The notes under the pieces are model-generated. The model did not search any database and was not told the DNA's origin. It saw nothing but the letters and a program-made list of their open reading frames with translations. The position numbers and the translations under genes are program-made. From the NCBI RefSeq assembly GCF_030408355.1, contig NZ_CP046606.1, positions 1,550,001-1,614,000 of the forward strand: 64,000 nucleotides of DNA. The letters run 5' to 3'. This DNA is from Corynebacterium afermentans subsp. afermentans (lineage in GTDB: Bacteria; Actinomycetota; Actinomycetes; Mycobacteriales; Mycobacteriaceae). How positions within the stretch are numbered: position 1 is the stretch's first letter; every line of letters begins with the position of its first letter. Shown piece after piece: positions 4,023-54,966 of this stretch.

Positions 4023-5324
4023 TTACCCCGCCACGATGTAGTCGTACTCGGGCGTGCCCGGCTCCAGGCGGCGGCAGTCGATCGCCGACTCATCCATCCG
4101 CCCCAACAGCGGAGCAAGGTCCTCGGCGCGTGCAAGCTCGATGCCCACGAGGGCTGCGCCTGTTTCGCGGTTGTTCTTTTTCAGGTACTCGAACAGCACG
4201 ATGTCGTCTTCCTCGCCGAGGATGTCGTTGAGGAAGTGGCGCAGTTGGCCTGCCTCCTGCGGGAAGTTGACCAAAAAGTAGTGGCGCAGGCCGCGGTGCA
4301 CCAGGGAGCGCTCCATCACCTCGGCGTAGCGCAGCACGTCGTTGTTGCCGCCGGAGATGATGCACACCACGGTCGAACCGGGCGAAAGTTCCGCCAGCCC
4401 CAGGCCCGCCACGGACAGCGCGCCGGCGGGCTCGGCGATGATGCCCTCGTTTTGGTACAGCCCGAGCATCTCGGTGCACACCGCGCCTTCGTCCGCGGCG
4501 TAGAGCTCGGTGGCGTCGCGGTGGGCGTTGAAAACCTGCCACGGGATGTCGCCGATGCGCTTTACCGCCGCGCCGTCCACGAACGGGTCGATGGCCTCCA
4601 GGGTGACGGGTCCGCCCGCATCGTGCGCCGCGCCTAACGATGCCGCACCTTTCGGCTCCACCCCAACCACCTTCGTCGCCGGAGACATGTCGGCCAGGTA
4701 GGACAGCACGCCGGAGATAAGCCCGCCGCCGCCCACCGGCACCAGCACGGTGTCCAGCTCTTTGCCCAGGCTGGCCAGCTGCGCCACGATTTCGGCGGCG
4801 ACGGTGCCCTGGCCGACCACGGTGTCGCGGGAGTCGAACGGCTCGATCACCGTCGCACCGCGTGCCGCGGCGTCCGCGCGGGCGGCCTGCGCGGCCTCGT
4901 CGAACGTGTTGCCCGTGACCACAAGTTCGATGGCGTCGCCGCCGTGGACGCGGATGCGGTCGCGCTTCTGCTTCGGGGTGGGCTTGGGCACGAAGATCCT
5001 TCCCTGGATGCCCATCGCGCGGCAGGCGTAGGCCACGCCTTGGGCGTGGTTGCCGGCGGATGCCGCCACGACACCGGCGGCGCGGGCGTCTTCGCTCAGC
5101 CGGGAGATGCCGTAGTAGGCACCGCGGATCTTGTAGGAGCGCACGTCCTGCAGGTCCTCGCGTTTGAGGTAGACATCCACGCCGTACTGCTCCGACAGCC
5201 GCGGGCAGTACTGCAGTGGAGTCGGAGAAATCACCGATGAGATCCGGCCTTGCGCGAACCGGATGTCGGCTGCGCGGACTTCCTCGAAGTCGGAGTCGGA
5301 CGTGTTCGGTGTGGCTGTGCGCAT
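4023..5324 (-). CDS. ilvA: Threonine ammonia-lyase (threonine dehydratase) IlvA
   Basis: PLP enzyme converting L-threonine to 2-oxobutanoate and ammonia, the first step to isoleucine. At 433 residues it has the length of the corynebacterial enzyme. The PLP lysine lies in KREDLQDVRSYKIRGAY (~54-70), the substrate loop ASAGNHAQGVAYAC is at ~88-101, and the phosphate-binding glycine loop VPVGGGGLISG is at ~192-202. The last ~90 residues form one ACT-like regulatory domain (HYFLVNFPQEAGQLRHFL), consistent with isoleucine feedback control; this is the short, single-ACT form. No leader-peptide attenuator is evident upstream. Confidence 0.95.
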   Translation of the reverse strand: MRTATPNTSDSDFEEVRAADIRFAQGRISSVISPTPLQYCPRLSEQYGVDVYLKREDLQDVRSYKIRGAYYGISRLSEDARAAGVVAASAGNHAQGVAYACRAMGIQGRIFVPKPTPKQKRDRIRVHGGDAIELVVTGNTFDEAAQAARADAAARGATVIEPFDSRDTVVGQGTVAAEIVAQLASLGKELDTVLVPVGGGGLISGVLSYLADMSPATKVVGVEPKGAASLGAAHDAGGPVTLEAIDPFVDGAAVKRIGDIPWQVFNAHRDATELYAADEGAVCTEMLGLYQNEGIIAEPAGALSVAGLGLAELSPGSTVVCIISGGNNDVLRYAEVMERSLVHRGLRHYFLVNFPQEAGQLRHFLNDILGEEDDIVLFEYLKKNNRETGAALVGIELARAEDLAPLLGRMDESAIDCRRLEPGTPEYDYIVAG

Positions 5325-5460
5325 GGTTATCGAGTCTACAACTGCCCGTCTTGTTTACTCCCCCTTCACCTCACCGTAACTTCGCGCCCACCTTCAGGCT
5401 GTACACAAGAGCACGTACTCATTTTCAGTTCGTTTTTACAGCCCCCTGAAAGGTTCACCT
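5325..5460. promoter_or_regulatory. Divergent intergenic region between ilvA and the anchor-I gene
   Basis: 136 bases separate two divergent starts, so both promoters should lie here. A GAAAGG ribosome-binding site precedes the ATG at 5461. No clear operator or leader ORF was recognised. Confidence 0.5.
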
Positions 5461-7320
5461 ATGTCCGGAAACCGCATCTCCCGCACCGGCCTCGCCGCCG
5501 GGTGCGCCACCGCCCTCACCCTCGGCCTTGTCTCCCCGGCAACCGCCGCCGTCGTTGCTGAGCCGGTGAAGGATCTTGCCGACGGTGCTACCGCCGACAT
5601 CTCGGTGCTGGGTTCCTACGGCGCAGGCGCCTTTGACGATTCCGCCGCCGAGATTGTCGCCTTCCACGCCGATTCCAAGCGCATCCTCACCGTCAACGCG
5701 CTCTCCGGCAAGATCGACGTCCTCGACGCGGCTGACCCCTCCACACCCACCAAGGTCGGCGAGGTTTCCGGCGGAGAGAACACCACCATCAACTCCGTCG
5801 CTGTGCGTGCCGACGGCCTCGCGGTGGCCACCGTCGAGCCAGAGAACAAAACCGATGCCGGTGAACTGATCTTCTTCGACGCCGGCGCTGACACGCCCGG
5901 CACCGTGCTCGGCCGCGTGGGTGTCGGTGCCCTGCCGGACATGGTGACCATCACCCCGGAGGGCGATTACGCACTGGTGGCTAACGAAGGCGAGCCCGCT
6001 GAGGATTACTCGGTTGATCCGGAGGGCAGCGTAGCCGTCGTAAAGCTGCCTGATGCTCTAAAGGCCGCGACCCAGGCCGATGTGCGCACCGCTGACTTCA
6101 CCGCGTTCGAGGGCACCTTGGCGGACAAGGGCGTGCACATCTACGGCCAGGTGGGCGCCTCCACCACCGAGGCACAGAACCTCGAGCCGGAATACATCGC
6201 AGTTTCAGGCGGCAAGGCGTACGTGACGCTGCAGGAAAACAACGCCGTCGCCGTGGTGGACATCGCCACCGCCACCGTCGAGGACGTGTGGCCACTGGGC
6301 TACACCGACCGCCGCGAGGTGCCAATGGACATCTCCGACAAGGACGACAAGATCGACCTCCGCACCGCACCGGTCAAGGGCATTCTGCAGCCGGATTCCA
6401 TCGCCGCCTACGAGGTCGACGGCACGACCTACCTGGTCACGGCCAACGAGGGCGACGCGCGCGACTGGGATGCCTACTCCGAGGAGAAGCGCATCAAGAA
6501 GCTGGGCGGCAAGAAGGCGGCCCCGATCTGCGAGGGCTACGCGGGCATGACCGCCGGCGAAATCGAGGAATTCCAGGCCGACGAAAACGCGGGCCGGTTG
6601 AAGATCACCACCGCGTTCGGTTTGAACGAAGAGAAGGACTGCTACGAGGACCTTTACACCTACGGCGGCCGCAGCTTCTCTATCTTCACCGCCGACGGCA
6701 AGCGCGTGTTCGACTCCGGCGCCGAGTTCGAGGAGCTCACCGCGAAGCTTCTGCCGGAGCACTTCAACACCAACCACACGGAAAACGAGTTCGAGTCCCG
6801 CTCCGACGACAAGGGTCCGGAGCCCGAAGGTGTCACCGTCGGCGAGATCAACGGCCGCACTTACGCGTTCATCGGCTTCGAGCGACTCGGCGGCGTGATG
6901 GTCTACGACATCACCGATCCGGCGAAGCCGACCTACACCGCCTACATCAACAACCGCGACTTCTCCATCAATATGGAAGAACTTGCCGACGAGAGCGATG
7001 ACGCCGTAAAGGCCGGGCTAGAGAAGGTTGGCGACTTGGGAGCTGAGGGCCTCACGTTCGTGTCGGAGAAGGACTCCCCGAACGGCGAGAACCTGCTGAT
7101 CGTGGGCAACGAGGTCTCCGGCACCACCACCGTGTTTAAGGTGGACTCGCTTATCGAGGCACCCGCCAAGCCTACCGAGCCCGCGCAGCCGGGCCAGGAC
7201 GCTGCCGGCAGCACCCTTTCTCACGGCGGTGTGATTGCGATCGCACTTGCTGCTGTGGCGCTGGCGATCGGCGCACTGGGCGCACTCGGCAACGTTGTGA
7301 ACTCGGTGTTTGCCAAGTAA
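5461..7320 (+). CDS. Secreted choice-of-anchor I family protein (YVTN/beta-propeller-like) with C-terminal TM anchor
   Basis: A 619-residue surface or secreted protein. Residues 1-~30 form a signal peptide (GCATALTLGLVSPATAA). The body carries propeller-type repeats (SKRILTVNALSGKIDVLDAA; YALVANEGEPAEDY; YIAVSGGKAYVTLQENNAV; YLVTANEGDARDWD) typical of choice-of-anchor I proteins, some of which are annotated as alkaline phosphatase-like. The C-terminus is a Pro-rich linker (KPTEPAQPGQ) and a hydrophobic helix (GGVIAIALAAVALAIGALG) with a short VFAK tail, so it is held by a membrane helix and not by an LPXTG sortase signal. No enzyme activity can be assigned from the sequence. Confidence 0.8.
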   Translation: MSGNRISRTGLAAGCATALTLGLVSPATAAVVAEPVKDLADGATADISVLGSYGAGAFDDSAAEIVAFHADSKRILTVNALSGKIDVLDAADPSTPTKVGEVSGGENTTINSVAVRADGLAVATVEPENKTDAGELIFFDAGADTPGTVLGRVGVGALPDMVTITPEGDYALVANEGEPAEDYSVDPEGSVAVVKLPDALKAATQADVRTADFTAFEGTLADKGVHIYGQVGASTTEAQNLEPEYIAVSGGKAYVTLQENNAVAVVDIATATVEDVWPLGYTDRREVPMDISDKDDKIDLRTAPVKGILQPDSIAAYEVDGTTYLVTANEGDARDWDAYSEEKRIKKLGGKKAAPICEGYAGMTAGEIEEFQADENAGRLKITTAFGLNEEKDCYEDLYTYGGRSFSIFTADGKRVFDSGAEFEELTAKLLPEHFNTNHTENEFESRSDDKGPEPEGVTVGEINGRTYAFIGFERLGGVMVYDITDPAKPTYTAYINNRDFSINMEELADESDDAVKAGLEKVGDLGAEGLTFVSEKDSPNGENLLIVGNEVSGTTTVFKVDSLIEAPAKPTEPAQPGQDAAGSTLSHGGVIAIALAAVALAIGALGALGNVVNSVFAK

Positions 7321-14203: not shown

Positions 14204-15958
14204 CTACTGCTGCCCCTCGGCCGCACGACGGGTGCTGGTGACCGTCACCGTGGCCGTGGTGCGCTCTTTCTTCTCCCGCGCCTCGCGCACCTGGTCCGGG
14301 TTGAAGTTCGGGTCCGTGATCTCCACGTTCTCACCGACTCGGTCTTGGTACTCCTCCGGCCAGTTGATCACGATGTCGCCCGGCTTCAGCTCGCCGCTGG
14401 TGACTGCGATGTCCACGTCGTTGGATGCGCCGGTTTTCACAGAACGCTCCTCGACGGTGCCCGACGTCGCATCATCGCCGTCCGTGGCGAGCACGAGCAC
14501 CTTCTTGTCGCTGTCCTCGCCGTAGACGGCGTCTAGCGGTACGTTCAGCGCGTCCTTCGCCTCGGCGGTGATGATTTCCGCGCGGGCGGAACCGCCGAGC
14601 AGCAGGCCTTCCTTGTCGCCGGTGACTTCGATCTCCACCGGGAACGTCACCTCGTTGGACTTGTTGTTGCCCTGCTGCGGCATACCTTGCATCGGGTTCT
14701 GGTTGCCGCTGGCAACGGAATCAGAGGCCGGCGCGATACGGGTGACGCGGCCCTTAAACGTCTTCTTGCCAGTCGCGGCGGTGGTGAACTCCACCCGGTC
14801 GCCTTCCTTGATATTGGGCACGTCTGATTCGCGCACGTCGGTGCGGATGACCAGGCGGGAATCGTCCGCGATGGTCAAAAGCTTGCCCTGCGGGATGTCA
14901 CCTTCGCGCACGTCCACGCTGGTGACCAGTCCCGCCATCGGGGCGTAAATGGTGGATTCGCGCACTTGGTATTCCAGGGTGCCGTCACCGTCGCCGAGCT
15001 GGGCAGTTTCGGCCTGTCGAATCGCGGAATCCAACTGCGCCTGCAGCTGGTTGCCCTCCTGCGCGGCCGCGGACTGCGCCGCAGCCAGGGCCGCCTTCGC
15101 GTCCTGCAGCGCCGCGCTTGCTTCTTCGACGCTCATGCCCGGGCCCACGGCAGCGCCGCCACCAGCACCGCCAGCGCCAGCACCACCAGCAGCGCTTTCC
15201 CCCGTCAGCTGCGCCAGCTGTTCAGGGCTCAGCTCACCGGGCATGCCCGGCTGGCCCGGCTGGCCCGGCTGGCCCGGCTGGCCAGGCATGGCCGGGGCCT
15301 CCGGTGCCGCCGGGGCCTCCGGCGCAGCCGGTGGTGCCGGAGGCGCCGTCCTGATGCCGAGGTCCGAGGAAATTCCGCCGGCGACACGCTCGACGGCCGC
15401 GATGCCACGGTTGACAATGCGAGCGCCGCCGTTGGCGGCCACGGCAGCGTCGTACGCCGCCTGCGCCTGATTAACCTGCGCCTGGGCGGCGCGGATGGCC
15501 TCGTTAGTGCCGTTGTTCACGCTTTCCTGGTGGGCGTTAAGCGCCGCGCGGGCCTGATCCACCTGCGCTTGGGCGTCCGCCTGCGCGTTGGCCTGCTGCT
15601 TCTGCTGAATCTCCAGCTGGCGCTCCAGCTGCTCGGAGTTCATGGAGGCCAAGAACTGCTGCGGCTGCACGCGATCGCCGGCCTTGACGGCCACCTGCTC
15701 CACCTCGGACTGCACCGAGGTGGAGATGTTCACGGAACGGATCGGCTCAATGGTGCCGTTGACCACAACACTGTCGGACACGCCTTCGTTGGTGGCCACG
15801 GTGTAATCGCCGGGGTTCAGGCCAGCCCCCTCAGCGTTGTCGTCGTCGCCTCCGCCGAATCCGCACGCGCTGAGGAAAAGCGCGGAGGTTGTCACCAACG
15901 CAAGTCCTGCTCGGCTAAGACGCTTGTGTCCGGTTGATTTTTCGGTAGAGGAAGTCAA
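14204..15958 (-). CDS. MacA/HlyD-like periplasmic adaptor lipoprotein of the ABC exporter
   Basis: A 584-residue adaptor. The start is taken as TTG 15958 because AAGGAG lies 5-6 nt before it and it is followed by a lipoprotein signal (LVTTSALFLSACGFGGG; lipid Cys in LSAC). A barrel/lipoyl half-motif (SEVEQVAVKAGDRVQP) is followed by a long helical hairpin with many Gln/Ala (LERQLEIQQKQQANAQADAQ). The hairpin is interrupted by a Pro/Gly-rich insert of GQP units and a Gly/Ala stretch. The second lipoyl half is YAPMAGLVTSVDVREGD, then a beta-barrel (DRVEFTTAATGKKTFKGRV). It would link the MacB-like permease to the outer envelope in a diderm-like mycolata. Substrate unknown. Confidence 0.88.
   Translation of the reverse strand: MTSSTEKSTGHKRLSRAGLALVTTSALFLSACGFGGGDDDNAEGAGLNPGDYTVATNEGVSDSVVVNGTIEPIRSVNISTSVQSEVEQVAVKAGDRVQPQQFLASMNSEQLERQLEIQQKQQANAQADAQAQVDQARAALNAHQESVNNGTNEAIRAAQAQVNQAQAAYDAAVAANGGARIVNRGIAAVERVAGGISSDLGIRTAPPAPPAAPEAPAAPEAPAMPGQPGQPGQPGQPGMPGELSPEQLAQLTGESAAGGAGAGGAGGGAAVGPGMSVEEASAALQDAKAALAAAQSAAAQEGNQLQAQLDSAIRQAETAQLGDGDGTLEYQVRESTIYAPMAGLVTSVDVREGDIPQGKLLTIADDSRLVIRTDVRESDVPNIKEGDRVEFTTAATGKKTFKGRVTRIAPASDSVASGNQNPMQGMPQQGNNKSNEVTFPVEIEVTGDKEGLLLGGSARAEIITAEAKDALNVPLDAVYGEDSDKKVLVLATDGDDATSGTVEERSVKTGASNDVDIAVTSGELKPGDIVINWPEEYQDRVGENVEITDPNFNPDQVREAREKKERTTATVTVTSTRRAAEGQQ
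15245..15280. repeat. 9-nt tandem repeat in the adaptor gene
   Basis: GCCCGGCTG repeats four times exactly (15245-15280). On the coding strand it encodes alternating Pro-Gly-Gln, a collagen-like low-complexity insert in the middle of the adaptor's helical hairpin. Confidence 0.85.
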
Positions 15959-21910: not shown

Positions 21911-23209
21911 TCACACGGCGAACGAATCCCCGGTGACGTACTCCATTCGCCTCGGCAGCGACCTGTTGCGCGAGACGAACCTGGCACCGTTTTTGAACGT
22001 GAAGAACAGGTCAGCCCCTTGGCGCTCGATGGTGACCACTCCGTGGCTCACCTGAGAGTGGCAGCTCGAGCACAACGGGATCAGATTGTCTAAATCAGTC
22101 ATGCCTCCGTGCTCCCACTCCTTAATGTGGTGCATTTCTATGAAGCGCCTATGCGAACATCCAGGCATAGCGCATTGATACCCCCAGATCGCCAACAGTG
22201 CCTGCACTTGGCCGTCGGTGGCGAACCGGCGCGAACGGCCGACGCGGATCGTCAGTCCCGTGTCATCCAGCAAGTGCAAACGCACCATCGCATTTGCAAG
22301 GTAGCTGCGCACATCCTCAGAACAGGCTGAGCGGTTTTCCGGCATCCAACATTGACCGAACTGGTTGACCATGAGGTTGACCTGCACGCCGGGACTGCGA
22401 AGCGGACTCTTTGGGTTCGCGCGAACCATATCGACCATGGCCAACAACGCCGCGTAAACGTCTTGCTTTTCTGGAGGCCCGTACCGCGACACCGAACGCA
22501 CGATGTCATCCATGGTGATCTTCGTGCGCTTTCGCGGAGCGCGGTCTTGCTCTGATGGGACGGCGTCTTCGGCGGCAACTGCGTCGTCGATAAGCTTCTG
22601 CACCTTCTCCGGATCCTGCAGATCATCTGGGTCCACATCCTCGAGACCGAAACTGGCAAGCTGAGCCACCTTTAACGCGGTCAGGAGCTTTTGGCCAGCT
22701 ACCGCCGGAAGCCGCGCCTCGAAGGCAAGCATGCCGTCGTCGCACTCGCGGGCGCGGGCATACGGCTCAGTCGGGTCCTTCTCTTTGGGCCTTGCCCCGG
22801 CAAGCACAAGCTGGAGATCAGCAAACGACATGCTCAACGCGAGTTGGACGTATTGCTCCTCGTTGCACTCCTCCAAATACTGGAGCAGGAAGCGGACTGT
22901 CGAATACGGCATCACCCCCGATTCGAATGCGTCGAACAAGAGCCTGAACTTTCTCAGCCCTCGCGCCACGCGCACGTACTCGAATGCCGTGGCCTGCGGG
23001 AGGTTGAGCTCGCTGCGCAACCACGTTGCCGTCGACTTCTCCCCGTACTTTTCCGCAAGCTCCTGTTCGTCGAACTGCCCCACCGCATCGAGCATCCGCG
23101 CCCGGTGGTGGTTCGCCGACAATTGATTGCACTTGATCTGATCCTCGAGCACCTCTGCCGACAGGTCACTCGTTCGATCTTCTGTCCGTTCGTCCACCGC
23201 AATTGTCAT
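21911..23209 (-). CDS. HNH endonuclease family protein (DUF222/13E12-like)
   Basis: A 432-residue protein of the actinobacterial multi-copy HNH family. The N-terminal two-thirds is a helical DUF222-like region (ELNLPQATAFEYVRVARGL). The C-terminal HNH motif is CAMPGCSHRRFIEMHHIKEW followed by LDNLIPLCSSCHSQVSHG (~350-393), with two Cys pairs for zinc and the catalytic His-His. Such genes are common and expanded in corynebacteria and mycobacteria, and their substrate is unknown. ATG 23209 follows AAGGGG. A palindromic repeat array lies just upstream (23351-23504). Confidence 0.85.
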   Translation of the reverse strand: MTIAVDERTEDRTSDLSAEVLEDQIKCNQLSANHHRARMLDAVGQFDEQELAEKYGEKSTATWLRSELNLPQATAFEYVRVARGLRKFRLLFDAFESGVMPYSTVRFLLQYLEECNEEQYVQLALSMSFADLQLVLAGARPKEKDPTEPYARARECDDGMLAFEARLPAVAGQKLLTALKVAQLASFGLEDVDPDDLQDPEKVQKLIDDAVAAEDAVPSEQDRAPRKRTKITMDDIVRSVSRYGPPEKQDVYAALLAMVDMVRANPKSPLRSPGVQVNLMVNQFGQCWMPENRSACSEDVRSYLANAMVRLHLLDDTGLTIRVGRSRRFATDGQVQALLAIWGYQCAMPGCSHRRFIEMHHIKEWEHGGMTDLDNLIPLCSSCHSQVSHGVVTIERQGADLFFTFKNGARFVSRNRSLPRRMEYVTGDSFAV

Positions 23210-23350
23210 GGTTGATCCCCTTACTCATGAACATTGACACCTTTATAGAACGCTCATGTGTTCGAGTCAAGGGTTTTGCAGAAAATGTCCATTGAAGTGG
23301 ACAACACACACGGTTTCACGAGTCCGGGGATCGAACATAAAACCCATTCG

Positions 23351-23504
23351 CTATGCCGCTGCATAGTTGGTGCCACCCCAGTATTGGCACGAGAAACTAT
23401 GCAGCTGCATAGTCAGCAACCCACACGAACGCCCCCAAAAACTATGCAGCTGCATAGTGGGTGCCACCCCAATATTGGCAAGAAAAACTATGCAGCCGCA
23501 TAGT
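23351..23504. repeat. Array of four 18-bp palindromes at ~46-bp spacing (repeat locus A)
   Basis: The palindrome ACTATGCAGCTGCATAGT is perfect at 23396-23413 and 23441-23458. It has one mismatch at 23487-23504 (GCAGCC) and is degenerate at 23351-23366 (GCCGCT). Intervals of 27-29 nt separate them; the first and third are near-identical (GGTGCCACCCCA, then TATTGGCA) and the second is different. The family recurs at 52.6-53.5 kb. The remainder of the 385-nt gap between the HNH gene and ileS holds the HNH promoter region and the ileS terminator, with no convincing ORF. Confidence 0.9.
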
Positions 23505-23546
23505 GCGAATCATCGAACGACGGTGCAACGCCCCCGCTGAGCAGCC

Positions 23547-23594: not shown

Positions 23595-26500
23595 CTAGCT
23601 GTTCTTACGAACAGTGGTGGTCACGCCATCGATGACGTCGTGTCCCTCGACCGGCTCGGTGACCACGTCGAAGGATGTCGCCAGGGTTTCGGCGGCGATG
23701 TGGTCGGCGTGGGTGCGGGCCCACTCCTCCTTCTCCGCAGGCACGGCCAGCACCACAGCGATGCGGTCGGAAACGTCGAAGCCCTCGCGCTTGCGGGCAT
23801 CCTGCAGACCGCGGATCACGTCGGCAGCCCAGCCCTCAGCCTCGAGTTCCTCGGTGACCTCGGTGTCGAGGACGACCAGGCCAACGGTGCCGTCGGCGTC
23901 GACACGCGCGGTGCTCTCCGGGTTCTCCGCCACCAGACGCTCGGTGTAAAGCTCCGGGGTGAGCACGATGTCGCCGTCGACCACCACATCGTCTCCGCGG
24001 CGCTCGTAGTTGCCGGCCTTGACGTTCTTGATGGCGCGCTGCACGTCCCTACCCAGCGACGGGCCAGCCACCTTGGCGTTAACCACGACTTCGAAGGATC
24101 CGGCCGCGTCGACGTCGTCAGTCAAAGCGACGTCCTTCACGTTCACCTCGTCGCGGATGGTGGAGCGGAACGCCTCAAGCTTGGCCGAATCCGGCAGGGC
24201 GACGGTGAGCTTCGGCAGCGGCAAGCGGTTGCGCAGCTTGTTCGCCTTGCGCACTGACGACGCCGCAGAGCACACCGCACGGGTCGCATCCATGGCGGCG
24301 ACCAGCTCGGCATCCGCCGGCAACTCGGAGGCATGCGGGTAGTCCGTCAGGTGCACCGAACGGCCGCCGGTGAGCCCGCGCCAGATGACCTCGGAGACGT
24401 ACGGCAAAAGCGGCGCCACCGCACGGGAGACGACCTCCAGCACCGTGTAGAGCGTATTAAACGCCTCGGGATGCGCCTCCTGCCCCTCCCAGAAACGGTC
24501 GCGGGAGCGGCGCACGTACCAGTTGGTCAGCGTGTCGGCGAAGCGACGCACCACGTCGCAGGCGTCGGCGATGCGGGTGTCGTCGAGCGCCTCGCCCACA
24601 GCTGCCACCATGTCGTGCGTCTTGGCCAGGATGTAGCGGTCGAGCACGTTGTCCGAATCCACAGACCACTGGGCGTCCGAGGACGAGTACAGCTGCAGGA
24701 ACGTGTACGCGTTCCAGATCGGCAGCAGCGCCTGGCGCACGCCCTCGCGGATGCCCTGCTCGGTGACGATCAGGTTGCCACCTCGCAGGATCGGCGAGGA
24801 CATGAGGAACCAGCGCATCGCGTCGGAGCCGTCGCGGTCGAAGACCTCCATCACGTTCGGGTAGTTGCCCTTGGACTTGGACATCTTCTGCCCGTCCGAG
24901 CCCAACACGATGCCGTGAGCGACGACCTTCTTGTACGCCACACGGTCGAATAGTGCGGTGGACAGCACGTGCTGCACGTAGAACCAGCCGCGGGTCTGCC
25001 CGGAGTACTCCACAATGAAGTCCGCGGGTTGGCGGGTGTCGAACTCCTCGCGATTCTCAAACGGGTAGTGGTATTGCGCGAACGGCATTGAGCCGGATTC
25101 GAACCAGCAGTCCAACACGTCCGGCACGCGGCGCATCATGGACTTGCCGGTCGGGTCGTCCGGGTTCGGGCGCACCAGCTCGTCGATGTGCGGGCGGTGC
25201 AGGGACTTCGGGCGGGTGCCGAAGTCGCGCTCCAGCTCATCCAGGGAGCCGTAGACGTCCACGCGCGGGTAGTCCGGGTTGTCGGAAACCCACGCCGGCA
25301 CAGGCGAGCCCCAGTAGCGGGTGCGCGAGATGTTCCAATCGCGCGCGCCTTCCAGCCACTTGCCAAACTGGCCGTCGCGGATGTGCGACGGGATCCACTC
25401 GATTTCCTGGTTCAGCTCCACCATCCGGTCGCGGATGTCGGTGACCTTCACAAACCACGCCGGCAGCGCCATGTAGATCAGCGGCTCGCCGGAGCGCCAG
25501 GAGTGCGGGTAGGAGTGCACGATGGTCTGGTCGCGCACGACGCGGCCCTTGGCGCGCAGGTCGCGGATGATGTCGCGGTTCGCGTCGAAAACGAGCTTGC
25601 CCTCGTATTCCGGCACGAGCGAGGTGAACTTGCCGTCGGCGTCGACGGGGATGGCCAGGTCGATGCCGTACTCCTGGCAGGTGAGCATGTCGTCCTCACC
25701 GAAGGCGGGTGCCTGGTGCACCACGCCGGTGCCGTCTTCGGTGGTCACGTAGTCCGCGTTGAGGATCATGAACGCGTTGTCGTGGTCGCGGAAATAGTCG
25801 AAGACTGGCTCGTACTCCAGGCCCTCCAGTTGCGCGCCCTCAAAGGTAGCCACTACCTCGTACTCACCGAGCTCCTTCGCAAAGGCGCCCAGCAGGGTCG
25901 AGGCAAGAAGCAATTGCTTATCGACGAACCCTGCGGCCCCATCCGCACCGACCTTGACCAACGAGTACTCCACCTCGGGATGGACAGCCAGAGCCAGGTT
26001 GGACGGCAGGGTCCACGGGGTCGTGGTCCAGGCGATGGCTGCGGCATCGTGAAGCTCAGGGTGCTCCGCCCACGTCTTTTCCGCCGCGTAGCCTGCGCGC
26101 CCACCGGTGAACGGCATAGTGACGGTGACGGTGGGGTCCTGGCGGTCGCGGTAGGAATCGTCCAGGCGGGTCTCCTGGTTCGACAGCGGAGTGTGCTCGG
26201 CCCACGAGTACGGCAGAACGCGGAAGCCCTGGTAGATCAAGCCCTTGTCGTAGAGCTCCTTGAACGCCCACATGACGGACTCCATGTACTCCGGGTCCAT
26301 GGTCTTGTAGCCGTTTTCGAAATCCACCCAGCGGGCTTGGCGGGTGACGTAGTCCTCCCACTCGCCCGCGTAGTGCATGACGGACTTGGCGCAGTACTCG
26401 TTGAACTTCTCCAGACCCATGTCCTCGATCTGGGCCTTATCGGTGATGCCGAGCTGCTTTTCCGCCTCAAGCTCTGCGGGCAGGCCGTGGCAATCCCAGC

Positions 26501-26771
26501 CGAACACGCGCGGCACGTGGTAACCGTACATTGTGCGGAAACGCGGCACGATGTCCTTGACATAGCCGGTGAGGAGATGGCCGTAGTGAGGCATGCCGTT
26601 GGCGAACGGCGGGCCGTCGTTGAACACGTACTCCTCGCAGCCCTCGCGCTGATCCAGGGACGCCTTGAACGTGCCGTCCGTGTTCCAATAATCGAGGACG
26701 ACTCGTTCCATCTCCGGGAAGCGGTCGCTGCCGCCGGTCATGTCCACTTTGGGGTAAACGTTGCCAACCAT
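23595..26771 (-). CDS. ileS: Isoleucyl-tRNA synthetase IleS
   Basis: A 1058-residue class I synthetase charging tRNA-Ile. The HIGH-equivalent motif is [14 protein letters not shown] (~54-67) and the KMSKS motif is [12 protein letters not shown] (~610-621). A CP1 editing domain lies between them, and the C-terminus is of the eukaryote-like long type found in actinobacteria, without a terminal zinc finger. The ATG at 26771 has GAAGGAG 8 nt upstream, and that ribosome site is part of the T-box leader that controls translation. Confidence 0.97.
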
Positions 26772-50971: not shown

Positions 50972-51236
50972 ACAGGAACGCGAGGATCTCGTCGGCGTCG
51001 TAGCCGCCGTCGGAAAGCACGGTGATCGCGCCGGAGACGAACTTGCTCAAGCCGTCCTCGCCGAGCAGGCGCGCCGGCACGACCTTCTTGCCGTCCTGGA
51101 CATAGTGCACCAGCTTCTTCGCGCCGATGTAGTCGTGCACCTTGGTCACCGGCACGCCCAGCCTCTCGGCGACATCCGGGAACGGCAGCAGGGTTTCGTC
51201 GATAAGCAATGGCTCAAGATTCGTTTGTGCGCTCAC
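50874..51236 (-). CDS. Rv2175c-like DNA-binding protein (PknL partner/substrate)
   Basis: A 120-residue winged-helix/HTH protein. VAERLGVPVTKVHDYIGAKK (~22-41) fits the recognition region, and the C-terminal VDALHGQKAREVIRRAQAMA (~101-120) is nearly identical to the end of M. tuberculosis Rv2175c. That protein is a known DNA-binding substrate of PknL. The start is set at GTG 51236; alternatives upstream (to 51263) would overlap the pknL start. Head-to-head with pknL, 25 nt apart. Confidence 0.88.
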   Translation of the reverse strand: MSAQTNLEPLLIDETLLPFPDVAERLGVPVTKVHDYIGAKKLVHYVQDGKKVVPARLLGEDGLSKFVSGAITVLSDGGYDADEILAFLFTPDESLPGRPVDALHGQKAREVIRRAQAMAF

Positions 51237-51261
51237 GGTCCGCGATTCTACTCTGGTGCAC

Positions 51262-52608
51262 ATGGCAACCTTGCGCGCAGGCACGACTCTGGACGGGCGT
51301 TACGTTGTCGACCGCCCAATCGCACGCGGTGGCATGGCAACCGTCTACCGCTGCGTCGACGCACGCCTCGGGCGCGAAGTGGCGGCGAAAGTCATGCTCG
51401 AGCAATACGTGCACGACGAAGTTTTCCGCGAACGCTTCCGCCGCGAAGCACGCGCAATGGCCCAGCTCAGCCACCCAAACCTAGTCAACGTCTACGACTT
51501 CTCCGCATCCGGCGGGGAAGTATTTTTGATCATGGAACTGATCACCGGCGGCACCCTGCGCGAACTACTCGCCGAACGCGGCCCCATGCCCCCGCACGCC
51601 GCCGCGTCCGTGATGCGCGGCATGCTCACCGGCCTCGCTGTCGCGCACGCGAAAGGCATGGTCCACCGCGACATCAAACCGGACAACGTACTCATCGACG
51701 CCTCCAGCCGCGTCAAACTCTCCGACTTCGGCCTCGTGCGCGCCGCCGCCGAAACCACCCAATCCACCGACCAAATCGTCGGCACCGTCGCCTACCTCTC
51801 GCCCGAACAAGTCGACGGCGGCGCACTGACCGCAGCCTCCGACGTCTACTCCGCCGGCATCGTGCTCTTCGAGCTACTCACCGGCCGCACCCCCTTCGGC
51901 GGCGATACTCCCCTGGCCCACGCGTACGCCCGGTTGCGTTCCGATGTGCCCGCGCCGTCGTCGCTGATCGCGGGGGTGCCAAAGCTTTTCGACGAGCTCG
52001 TGGCCACCGCCACCGCCCGCAACCCGCAAGACAGGTTCCACGACGCCGCAGAATTTTTGGCGGCGCTGGACGACGTGGCCAGCGAGCTGCGACTGCCCGC
52101 CTACACCGTGCCCGCCCCACGCAACTCTGCCGCGCACCGAGCCGCCGAACACCCGACCAATTTTGGGCTGGCTGCAGGGGTTGGCGGTGCTAGCGGTACC
52201 CCGAGTGCTCCGGGCACTCAGAGCGCCGCCCACCAGCGCCTTTTCCCCGGCGACGACGCCCCCACCCGCGTCTCCCCCTCTCCCGCCAGGCCCGCCCAGC
52301 CAGCACCCGGCCCGGCGCGCGGCCAATGGCCCGCGGCTGGTCCCGTACCTGGCCCGGCCGCAGGTCCCACACCTGTTCAGAGACCTGCTCCGAGGCAGAT
52401 CTCGCCCAACAACCCGGATGTTCCTTCCACCCGCGAGCCCGCTTCCCAGCGTCCCGTCGTTAAGCCAGTGTCGAACCGTTCCCCATTCGCCGTGGCTCTT
52501 TACACCGTGTTCGTGATAATCGCGATCATCGCCGTGGCGCTGGGGGCTTGGTGGTTCGGCTCCGGCATGTACGGCGAAATCCCCGAGATCATCGTGCCCC
52601 AGGCATAG
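51262..52608 (+). CDS. pknL: Serine/threonine protein kinase PknL
   Basis: A 448-residue Hanks-type receptor kinase. Glycine loop ARGGMATVYRCVDARLG (~21-37), VAIK-type lysine in EVAAKVML, catalytic loop GMVHRDIKPDNVLID (~132-146), DFGLVRAA (~153-160) and the APE-equivalent YLSPEQVDG are intact. A long Pro/Ala/Ser-rich juxtamembrane linker (~290-410) leads to one TM helix (FAVALYTVFVIIAIIAVALGA, ~411-431) and an external tail of only ~15 residues. There are no PASTA sensor domains, as in mycobacterial PknL. It probably phosphorylates the divergent Rv2175c-like protein. Confidence 0.94.
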   Translation: MATLRAGTTLDGRYVVDRPIARGGMATVYRCVDARLGREVAAKVMLEQYVHDEVFRERFRREARAMAQLSHPNLVNVYDFSASGGEVFLIMELITGGTLRELLAERGPMPPHAAASVMRGMLTGLAVAHAKGMVHRDIKPDNVLIDASSRVKLSDFGLVRAAAETTQSTDQIVGTVAYLSPEQVDGGALTAASDVYSAGIVLFELLTGRTPFGGDTPLAHAYARLRSDVPAPSSLIAGVPKLFDELVATATARNPQDRFHDAAEFLAALDDVASELRLPAYTVPAPRNSAAHRAAEHPTNFGLAAGVGGASGTPSAPGTQSAAHQRLFPGDDAPTRVSPSPARPAQPAPGPARGQWPAAGPVPGPAAGPTPVQRPAPRQISPNNPDVPSTREPASQRPVVKPVSNRSPFAVALYTVFVIIAIIAVALGAWWFGSGMYGEIPEIIVPQA

Positions 52609-52621
52609 CCGGGCGACTTCC

Positions 52622-52721
52622 ACTATGCAGCTACATAGTGTTAATGGGTGCGGACCAACTATTGGTGCCAGCTGAATTGTCCGCAATGCGGAGACCGCAA
52701 GCGCCCCTTCGGCCCGGGAAC
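52622..52721 (+). repeat. 100-bp palindrome-headed repeat, copy B1
   Basis: Begins with ACTATGCAGCTACATAGT (one mismatch to the palindrome), continues through GGACCAACTATTGG and CAGCTGAATTGTCC, and ends in GCCCCTTCGGCCCGGGAAC. It aligns without gaps over all 100 positions to the copy at 53223-53322. The rest of the 240-nt gap between pknL and the small membrane gene shows nothing else recognisable. Confidence 0.92.
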
Positions 52722-52848
52722 GGGCCCGAACCCCGGAAAGTGGACACGGGGACTTAATCGCGATGCGATAGTACGTGTCGCGGCTTCGAAGGCGAAATCT
52801 AGAGGGGGCTAACTGTAATTGGCCTTACAGCGACTCCATATCTATAGG

Positions 52849-53142
52849 CTATGCGAAGTTTCCATAGCCAGAAATGGTGCTCACCCATAAGAACGCTGTT
52901 ACGACGAAAGCCGCGGCGAATGTGAAGGCAAAAGCACGCCATGATCGGTCGCTAAGCCGATCCTTTTTCAACATGTAGACAGACATGGCTAATACACCCA
53001 ACGCCACCAATGAAGGTAGAGGTAGCCCATAGAAGACGAAAGGTATTGGAAGCCATGTGGACAGGAGCACTCCGCCGTAAAGGGTTGCGATGCCCAAGAC
53101 AATTCCAAAAAGTATTCCCGGAATGATCGTTCTTTCTTTCAC
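52849..53142 (-). CDS. Orphan small membrane protein in the repeat-flanked pocket
   Basis: A 97-residue protein with three hydrophobic segments: IIPGILFGIVLGIATLYGG (~5-23), LPLPSLVALGVLAMSVYML (~38-56) and FAFTFAAAFVVTAFLWVSTI (~70-89). A KKDRLSDRSWR cytoplasmic loop lies between the last two. GTG 53142 follows AGGAA with 6 nt spacing. Base composition is clearly AT-richer than the neighbours. It sits between direct copies of the repeat (B1 and a truncated copy) and has no counterpart in the otherwise conserved pknL-aroG order. I do not recognise a family. Confidence 0.6.
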   Translation of the reverse strand: MKERTIIPGILFGIVLGIATLYGGVLLSTWLPIPFVFYGLPLPSLVALGVLAMSVYMLKKDRLSDRSWRAFAFTFAAAFVVTAFLWVSTISGYGNFA

Positions 53143-53155
53143 AACAAATTCCTTA

Positions 53156-53214
53156 GGTGTAGACCAACTATTGGCACCCACCAATCAGTCCGCAATGCGG
53201 ACCCCGCGACAAGC
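53156..53214 (+). repeat. Truncated copy of the repeat (palindrome missing)
   Basis: GACCAACTATTGG and GTCCGCAATGCGGA match the 3' part of the B copies in the same orientation, but the palindrome is absent. It lies immediately upstream of the small membrane gene and 8 nt before the next full copy. Confidence 0.8.
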
Positions 53215-53222
53215 ACCCAACC

Positions 53223-53322
53223 ACTATGCAGCTGCATAGTGCTACTGGGTACGAACCAATTATTGGTGCCAGCTGAATTGTCCACAAAGTGAAGTCCGCA
53301 AGCGCCCCTTCGGCCCGGGAAC
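53223..53322 (+). repeat. 100-bp palindrome-headed repeat, copy B2
   Basis: Starts with the perfect palindrome ACTATGCAGCTGCATAGT (53223-53240) and ends in GCCCCTTCGGCCCGGGAAC exactly as copy B1. About a tenth of positions differ between the two copies. Confidence 0.92.
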
Positions 53323-53423
53323 CTCGGCTTCTCGTAAGATCTGACGACCGCCTGACATTTCCGCAGATCGCGGAACGCCAAACTCGGCAAAATGTCAACT
53401 TTTGCGAGAGCGGCCACCCAACC

Positions 53424-53509
53424 ACTATGCAGCTGCATAGTGTTACTGGGTGTGGACCAATTATTGGCCCCAGCTGAATTGTCCGCAATGCAGAGACCGC
53501 AAGCGACCC
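53424..53509 (+). repeat. Palindrome-headed repeat, copy B3
   Basis: Perfect palindrome at 53424-53441, then GGACCAATTATTGG, CAGCTGAATTGTCC and GAGACCGCAAGCG; it diverges before the CGGCCCGGGAAC end. With the other copies it fills most of the 405-nt gap before aroG; nothing else is recognisable there. Confidence 0.9.
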
Positions 53510-53547
53510 GCACGAATGGAAGACGACGCCGCGGGCGCCGTCAACAA

Positions 53548-54966
<1,419 letters not shown>

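Follow-up and report, generated by a model that had tools for sequence, protein, structure and literature searches.

The dRS3/NIME repeats of Neisseria combine conserved short half-sites with a variable centre and form intergenic arrays together with other short repeats, the dRS3 sequence being ATTCCC-N8-GGGAAT; the BOX elements of Streptococcus pneumoniae are mosaics of modules whose internal copy number varies. The REP and BIME sequences of enterobacteria are likewise short palindromic modules in extragenic mosaics, and BIMEs are reported to bind gyrase and IHF (PMC2267715). CGTC-tagged REPs have been described as palindromic repeats without a dedicated transposase, in a paper whose main text has no occurrence of Corynebacterium (PMC3733652). 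For the MarR-family regulator AesR of C. glutamicum, an operator is reported with half-sites ACTATG/CATAGT and N3 spacing, in a divergent promoter (PMC13413800).

Here we describe repeats of Corynebacterium afermentans subsp. afermentans whose likeness to BIME and NIME is one of form. They lie in a window (the whole stretch of DNA analysed, 64,000 nucleotides; NZ_CP046606.1, 1,550,001-1,614,000) of a genome of 2,375,453 bases, called G000 below, in which a sequence-only reading had noticed a unit of about 100 bp, repeated four times around an orphan membrane gene. As in BIMEs, palindromic modules are combined with other motifs outside genes, and, in likeness to the CGTC-tagged REPs, no RAYT transposase was found with them. 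Unlike REP/BIME, the repeats show constrained half-sites around a free loop with no long stem, and they form arrays after rRNA operons. From dRS3/NIME they differ in sequence and spacing (ACTATGC-N4-GCATAGT), and from BOX in that their modules are independent dyads with different genomic ranges. The half-site is the same as that of the AesR operator, but its spacing is N6, and the window copies lie between convergent genes or behind ileS. The AesR operator proper (ACTATG-N3-CATAGT) was tried and rejected: it has 0 matches in G000 and, at up to one mismatch, occurs in 2 of 17 genomes against 9 of 17 for a reversed control. A CRISPR array was also rejected, neighbouring A dyads being 20 to 203 nt apart and the units diverged. 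Literature searches found no paper with the exact motifs, and no description of these repeats under their topic, judging by titles and the starts of abstracts; as far as their available text goes, PMC5401885 has the 7-mer in primers only and PMC5217627 reports CRISPR motif pairs for Corynebacterium.

The repeats are genuine and not a chance pattern; they are conserved and restricted to one clade. We give about even weight to the reading that they are an extragenic mosaic of palindromic modules serving as arrays of sites to which at least one dimeric protein binds in a sequence-specific manner. If protein-bound, they would constitute a site system in corynebacteria (C. mucifaciens, C. haemomassiliense and relatives) of which we found no description in the literature, and the many arrays in 11 genomes, as natural replicates, would make the function of extragenic palindromes testable.

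Two arrays built of separable modules

Three modules that can occur apart make up the unit: dyad A (ACTATGC-N4-GCATAGT, 18 bp, with two 7-bp half-sites and a 4-nt loop), a CCAAY-type dyad B, and dyad C, the 16-mer TTGTCCGCAATGCGGA, referred to as the C box (Table 1). A repeat search of the window found the copies where the sequence-only reading had placed them, at 52620-52721, 53221-53322, 53422-53523 and, partial, 53156-53207, all on the + strand; copies 2 and 3 are 89% and 82% identical to copy 1 over 102 nt. The shared sequences that had been named were present too: GGACCAAYTATTGG exactly in two copies, CAGCTGAATTGTCC in the three full copies and GCCCCTTCGGCCCGGGAAC in two. These units sit between the convergent kinase gene, which we take to be pknL, and aroG. 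They surround a gene that is indeed intact and has no Pfam family, its membrane nature being a judgement by eye only.

Table 1. Modules of the two arrays and the genes around them (positions in the window)
Feature	Position	Strand	Basis or remark
HNH-endonuclease gene	21911-23209	-	flanks 23.4-kb array opposite ileS
Dyad A, 2 mismatches, ileS array	23350-23367	.	motif search
Dyad A, ileS array	23396-23413	.	motif search
Dyad A, then B-like dyad (CCAATATTGG), ileS array	23441-23458	.	motif search
Dyad A, 1 mismatch, ileS array	23487-23504	.	motif search
ileS	23595-26771	-	TIGR00392
Ser/Thr kinase gene (presumably pknL)	51142-52608	+	closest NCBIfam model PknB_PASTA_kin, score under cut-off
Dyad A (ACTATGCAGCTACATAGT, one mismatch), first composite unit	52622-52639	.	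motif search
B-C module, first composite unit	52641-52697 (G000 1602641-1602697)	+	B-C model; C box TTGTCCGCAATGCGGA at 52677-52692
Orphan 97-aa gene	52849-53142	-	start taken as GTG; intact; judged hydrophobic by eye
B-C module without dyad A ('truncated' copy)	53150-53206	+	B-C model
Dyad A, perfect	53223-53240	.	motif search
B-C module, second full unit; box = TTGTCCACAAAGTGAA	53242-53298	+	B-C model
Dyad A, perfect	53424-53441	.	motif search
B-C module, third full unit	53443-53499	+	B-C model
Class II DAHP synthase gene (called aroG)	53548-54936	-	TIGR01358

When searched as a 20-nt palindrome with up to three mismatches, the head of the unit has seven matches in the window, against none in 100 dinucleotide-preserving shuffles. 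Three lie at 52.6-53.4 kb and four at 23349-23505, where the sequence-only reading had recognised the family core; a profile of the four copies also picks up this second place (best E ~5e-4).

At both loci the arrays turn over in place. Related genomes keep the order A, B, C in the pknL-aroG gap, with a tandem period of ~92 nt in G187, and copy number runs from four B-C and three A modules in G000 through one unit in G154 and a degenerate A only in G236 to none in G079. The ileS gap holds 3-7 A dyads, with differing spacers, in each of nine genomes viewed, the stretches having been fetched where dyads were already known (G079 and G154 are outside the nine). The ileS locus of G032 (L159 1769-2932) has a gene for a trypsin-like protein between two pairs of A dyads.

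Distribution in genome, genus and order

A model made from 39 of the 43 B-C copies (three identical and one near-identical copy left out) matches G000 43 times at E values of 5.7e-18 to 1.6e-9, the next candidate standing well apart at 0.0035. Depending on grouping, the matches form 10 to 12 clusters, near 12.8 kb, 652 kb, 1.153-1.155 Mb, 1.603 Mb, 1.895 Mb, 2.248 Mb, 2.273, 2.287, 2.305-2.316 (three) and 2.355 Mb. Dyad A (18 bp, up to three mismatches) has ten places in G000, and all ten fall between 1,497,115 and 1,603,441, a span of 106 kb. In G000, B-C is genome-wide and A regional, and because the two differ in this way, the earlier picture of one dispersed family in two gaps, correct in that repeats are present at both, is too simple for what is a composite. 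The modules lie mostly between genes, by an approximate gene call, and there they occur in the combinations A, A-B, B-C and A-B-C.

Corynebacterium genomes were searched, as the sequence-only reading had proposed. The C box (16-mer, up to one mismatch) is found in 57 of 242 Corynebacterium genomes, with at least six copies in 11 only (G000, G032, G052, G079, G091, G095, G099, G116, G154, G187 and G236), and the B-C model matches (E <=1e-4) in 13 of 17 chosen genomes, 150 candidates per genome being scored. Dyad A (AGCT loop, up to two mismatches) is found in 17 of the 242, including all 11 C-box-rich genomes at 3 to 21 places each; the other carriers are G023 (1), G039 (2), G093 (7, variant), G146 (1), G152 (7) and G240 (40). 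Both modules occur in number in 11 of the 242. Among the named records, the C box is present in C. mucifaciens, C. haemomassiliense, C. wankanglinii, Corynebacterium sp. HMSC05H05 and MSK008, among others; outside the genus the box has five single matches, judged to be chance. In a sample of 397 genomes from the whole order, exact A, whatever its loop, is present in two, G000 and G039, which both belong to Corynebacterium; none of the 387 sampled genomes from outside the genus has it.

The 2355-kb locus keeps its C boxes in five genomes, at 3 to 13 per locus. G240 carries 48 exact A dyads scattered over the entire genome; its 58 A dyads with up to one mismatch, at 31 loci, stand between convergent genes in 25 cases, co-oriented in 21 and divergent in 10, with one intragenic and one undetermined by the approximate gene calls. 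As for structure within single arrays, L043 (about 4310-4990) has a direct duplication with a period of ~340 bp and two B-C modules per copy, and runs of N lie beside the gyrA-downstream unit in L037 (from about 4866) and in L193.

Constraint on the half-sites, mobility and folding

We compared G000 with orthologous non-coding stretches of up to three relatives in eight blocks. Half-sites change less than loop and spacers: substitutions number 9 of 292 in A half-sites, 9 of 84 in the A loop, 20 of 367 in the C box and 445 of 4164 in spacers (Fisher 5e-6 for A, 9e-4 for C), figures that could overstate constraint in that the motifs were chosen in the reference, the comparisons share that reference and hence are non-independent, and the local alignment covers some blocks in part and is biased toward similar stretches. 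Gene conversion among copies, restoring the motifs, could also inflate it. The A loop, though within the dyad, behaves like spacer and therefore serves as an internal control, and the pattern suggests a selection-like constraint on the half-sites. Dyad A has in this respect the form of dRS3/NIME (half-sites 9/292, loop 9/84), a likeness without sequence membership.

The logo of the B-C module rests on 145 unique sites from 11 genomes (from 161 matches, reduced to 155 by leaving out six that lacked a clear core or lay too close to an end). In it a conserved TTGG block is followed by a variable spacer and then by TTGTCCGCAATGCGGA, whose left half is strongest: TCCGC is 97-100% conserved. Among the 58 A dyads of G240 the half-sites reach 1.45-2.0 bits (conditioned by the search), the loop 0.83-1.51 and the flanks at most 0.67, so that strong conservation is confined to the 18-bp dyad with no longer element.

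The main alternative is selfish DNA: a MITE- or REP-like repeat, non-autonomous and mobilised by some transposase acting in trans, that is concentrated where insertions do no harm. We consider it possible but unlikely. The empty-site comparison proposed by the sequence-only reading did bring out presence/absence differences: at leuS-DUF488 the C box is present in G000 and G099 and absent in G095 and G052, downstream of gyrA it is present in G000 and G095 and absent in G052 and G099, and on the rnhB side dyad A is present in G000 and G095 and absent in G187, G091 and G052. The opposite orientation of units after rRNA operons in two genome sets and the 48 scattered exact A dyads of G240 are also in keeping with movement. 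Loss, however, fits the presence/absence differences as well as gain, and no fixed ends or clean target duplication could be defined when occupied and empty sites were compared by eye at four loci. REP proper has GTAG or a similar tetranucleotide at the foot of its hairpin; beside the dyad in the 58 A copies of G240 no fixed tetranucleotide stands out. The positions compared are for the most part syntenic from species to species, and at them the dyads persist while spacers and copy number change. A loop that varies like spacer while the half-sites stay is unexpected of passive copies. Finally, the Y1/RAYT domain (Y1_Tnp, PF01797) was found in 0 of 26 genomes, whereas 5 of 14 control genomes, E. 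coli included, were positive.

The proposal of a small non-autonomous element was not borne out by these comparisons, although past mobility may lie behind the presence/absence differences. Its companion, a REP-like sequence, fits broadly, as short palindromic modules, mostly intergenic and clustered, but membership in REP proper fails for want of a RAYT transposase; that the unit matched no named family agreed with the absence of Rfam matches at the stretches searched and with the literature searches. Were the repeats mobile instead of protein-bound, they would have spread without the RAYT transposase to which REPs are usually tied. They come in tens of copies, not hundreds as dRS3/NIME do, and exact dyad A with the AGCT loop has 0 matches in viral contigs, on which ground, together with two matches of the 18-mer of C that were judged to be chance, a viral origin was rejected.

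A second alternative places the function in RNA or in a hairpin, as terminator, attenuator or small RNA. Several units follow a terminator-like hairpin and T run (by eye), units lie downstream of rRNA operons, and the ileS array stretch, taken as single-stranded DNA, has a much stronger fold than its shuffles (z -5.3, 0 of 200 shuffles). Yet most changes in the dyads hit a single arm, contrary to what a maintained hairpin would lead one to expect: in dyad C, 32 are one-sided and broken, 20 are G-T and 2 compensatory (145 sites), and in dyad A 26 are one-sided against 4 two-sided, three of the latter compensatory (109 dyads, 27 loci, 10 clade genomes). Moreover, the three full window units fold weakly as DNA (z -1.8, -0.5 and -2.1), and the two terminator-like sites in 52500-53700, where shuffles would give 1.1, are both away from the units. 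With one-sided changes dominating, window units folding weakly and no Rfam match, we set this aside as the main reading and regard it as highly improbable; the folding of the ileS stretch is expected of paired palindromes, which leaves room for a structural role of the arrays.

It is scarcely likely, too, that the units are DnaA-box clusters titrating the initiator. TTGTCCACA is the actinobacterial DnaA box, and TTGTCCGCA is one base off it; 8 of the ~12 clusters lie within 130 kb of the contig ends, where DnaA-like boxes are seen. Those boxes, however, are TTATCCACA (six) or TTGTCCACA (one), with A at position 7, where the units carry G in 97% of 145, and initiator binding would need no right half of the C dyad. 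We rejected this candidate because the unit boxes differ from those at the contig ends.

Places of the arrays, probable gene exchange and a putative binding protein

Four B-C clusters of G000 are directly downstream of rRNA operons. At 15 fetched rRNA 3' ends from five genomes, G000 (4), G095 (4), G091 (3), G032 (3) and G099 (1), the nearest C box is ~80-195 nt downstream of 5S; the ends were fetched for carrying units, so this is an association without a denominator from which no rate follows. Units run antiparallel to the rRNA in 11 cases (G000, G095, G091) and parallel in 4 (G032, G099), place thus being kept better than orientation. Although 11 of 12 B-C clusters of G000 point the same way along their replication arms, assuming a terminus opposite the origin, the idea that replication fixes orientation was dropped, since the rRNA-end units are flipped in G032 and G099. 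In L039 (about 5035-6760) a further palindromic stretch (TCGAGTACGCCC...) of an rRNA-downstream array is, to judge by eye, interrupted by an IS whose transposase has an rve domain.

Returning to binding-site arrays, we infer that a putative protein binds the dyads. In dyad A, a dimeric protein would contact the two 7-bp half-sites (ACTATGC) on either side of four free bases; the B-C site would be an asymmetric 16-mer, TTGTCCGCAATGCGGA, at a near-fixed distance from the CCAAY-type dyad. Arrays would lengthen and shorten by tandem duplication and recombination, and selection would retain the sites within them. Speculatively, the bound protein may have a local effect on DNA topology or insulation where transcription units end. 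This is suggested by the places of the arrays, which follow rRNA operons in both orientations and often fall between convergent genes; against it, 10 of the 58 A dyads of G240 are placed between divergent genes by the approximate gene calls. We think it quite unlikely that they reflect a clade-specific chromosome organisation, in which a dedicated putative DNA-binding protein would use dyad arrays to mark rRNA operon 3' ends and the 106-kb domain that contains the ileS and pknL loci, in the manner of a boundary or a centromere.

The orphan gene of the window raises a further alternative, that the arrays are recombination platforms which give short homology for swapping accessory genes in and out at fixed loci. 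The gene stands at the same place in G052, G095 and G187; it was not found in the fetched pknL-aroG loci of G154, G091, G236 and G079, nor, with its neighbours, in the fetched stretches of G032, G099 and G116. Among the matches listed it has 25 relatives, and the few with a source name are Corynebacterium. Between G000 and G052 its DNA is 98.0% identical, against 92.7% for aroG and 87.6% for pknL (differences 6/294 for the orphan and 102/1389 for aroG, Fisher 3e-4), and toward G187 the figures are 97.3% and 93.1% (Fisher 0.005). We read this as recent interspecies exchange: the gene at the window locus was probably exchanged between species. Recombination platforms would account for the excess toward G052, for the end of the 360-bp matching segment with the orphan at window 53155, at the partial unit, for the trypsin-like gene between A pairs in G032, and for a second small gene, hydrophobic by eye, that is flanked by B-C modules (L045 3921-4175) and recurs in G052 and G095.

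Against this, the orphan shows no excess identity toward G095 (Fisher 0.44), and the second orphan has no clear excess, judged by percentages alone (93.7% in G052 against 88.8-89.1% for its neighbours; 91.9% in G095 against 97.7% and 87.4%). Most arrays read are without a gene, and platforms leave unexplained why the half-sites, and not the whole unit, are constrained. We rate recombination platforms as decidedly improbable; binding-site arrays of a putative protein, with array turnover and some gene exchange at the same loci, are most likely. The orphan genes also suggested integron-like cassettes as a possible reading, which we do not favour. By eye, both orphans are membrane genes.

Several neighbours and companions of the dyads deserve record. 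At L044 15093-15641 two B-C units flank an 84-aa ORF beside a small HTH_3 gene (15417-15641), which lies 14 nt from a B-C unit; this neighbourhood is possibly a putative binder or a toxin-antitoxin remnant. MarR_2 matches in G000 and G240, compared by position only, have 0 of 35 within 1 kb of a known dyad A, the nearest being ~1.3 kb away in G240. In that genome (L162-L192) a second palindrome, TTACGCACGTGCGTAA (up to three mismatches), lies within 25 nt of 30 of 45 exact A dyads, 9-20 nt away; its centre is CACGTG, which is also the centre of parS. The A dyads of L116 (G039) alternate with GTCCACACGTGTGGAC- and TGTCCAGACGTCTGGACA-like palindromes. A variant dyad, ACTCTGC-N4-GCAGAGT, occurs in L120 and L124 (G093 and G146), and in G093 it adjoins TCCGCATTGCGGAC, followed by a T run.
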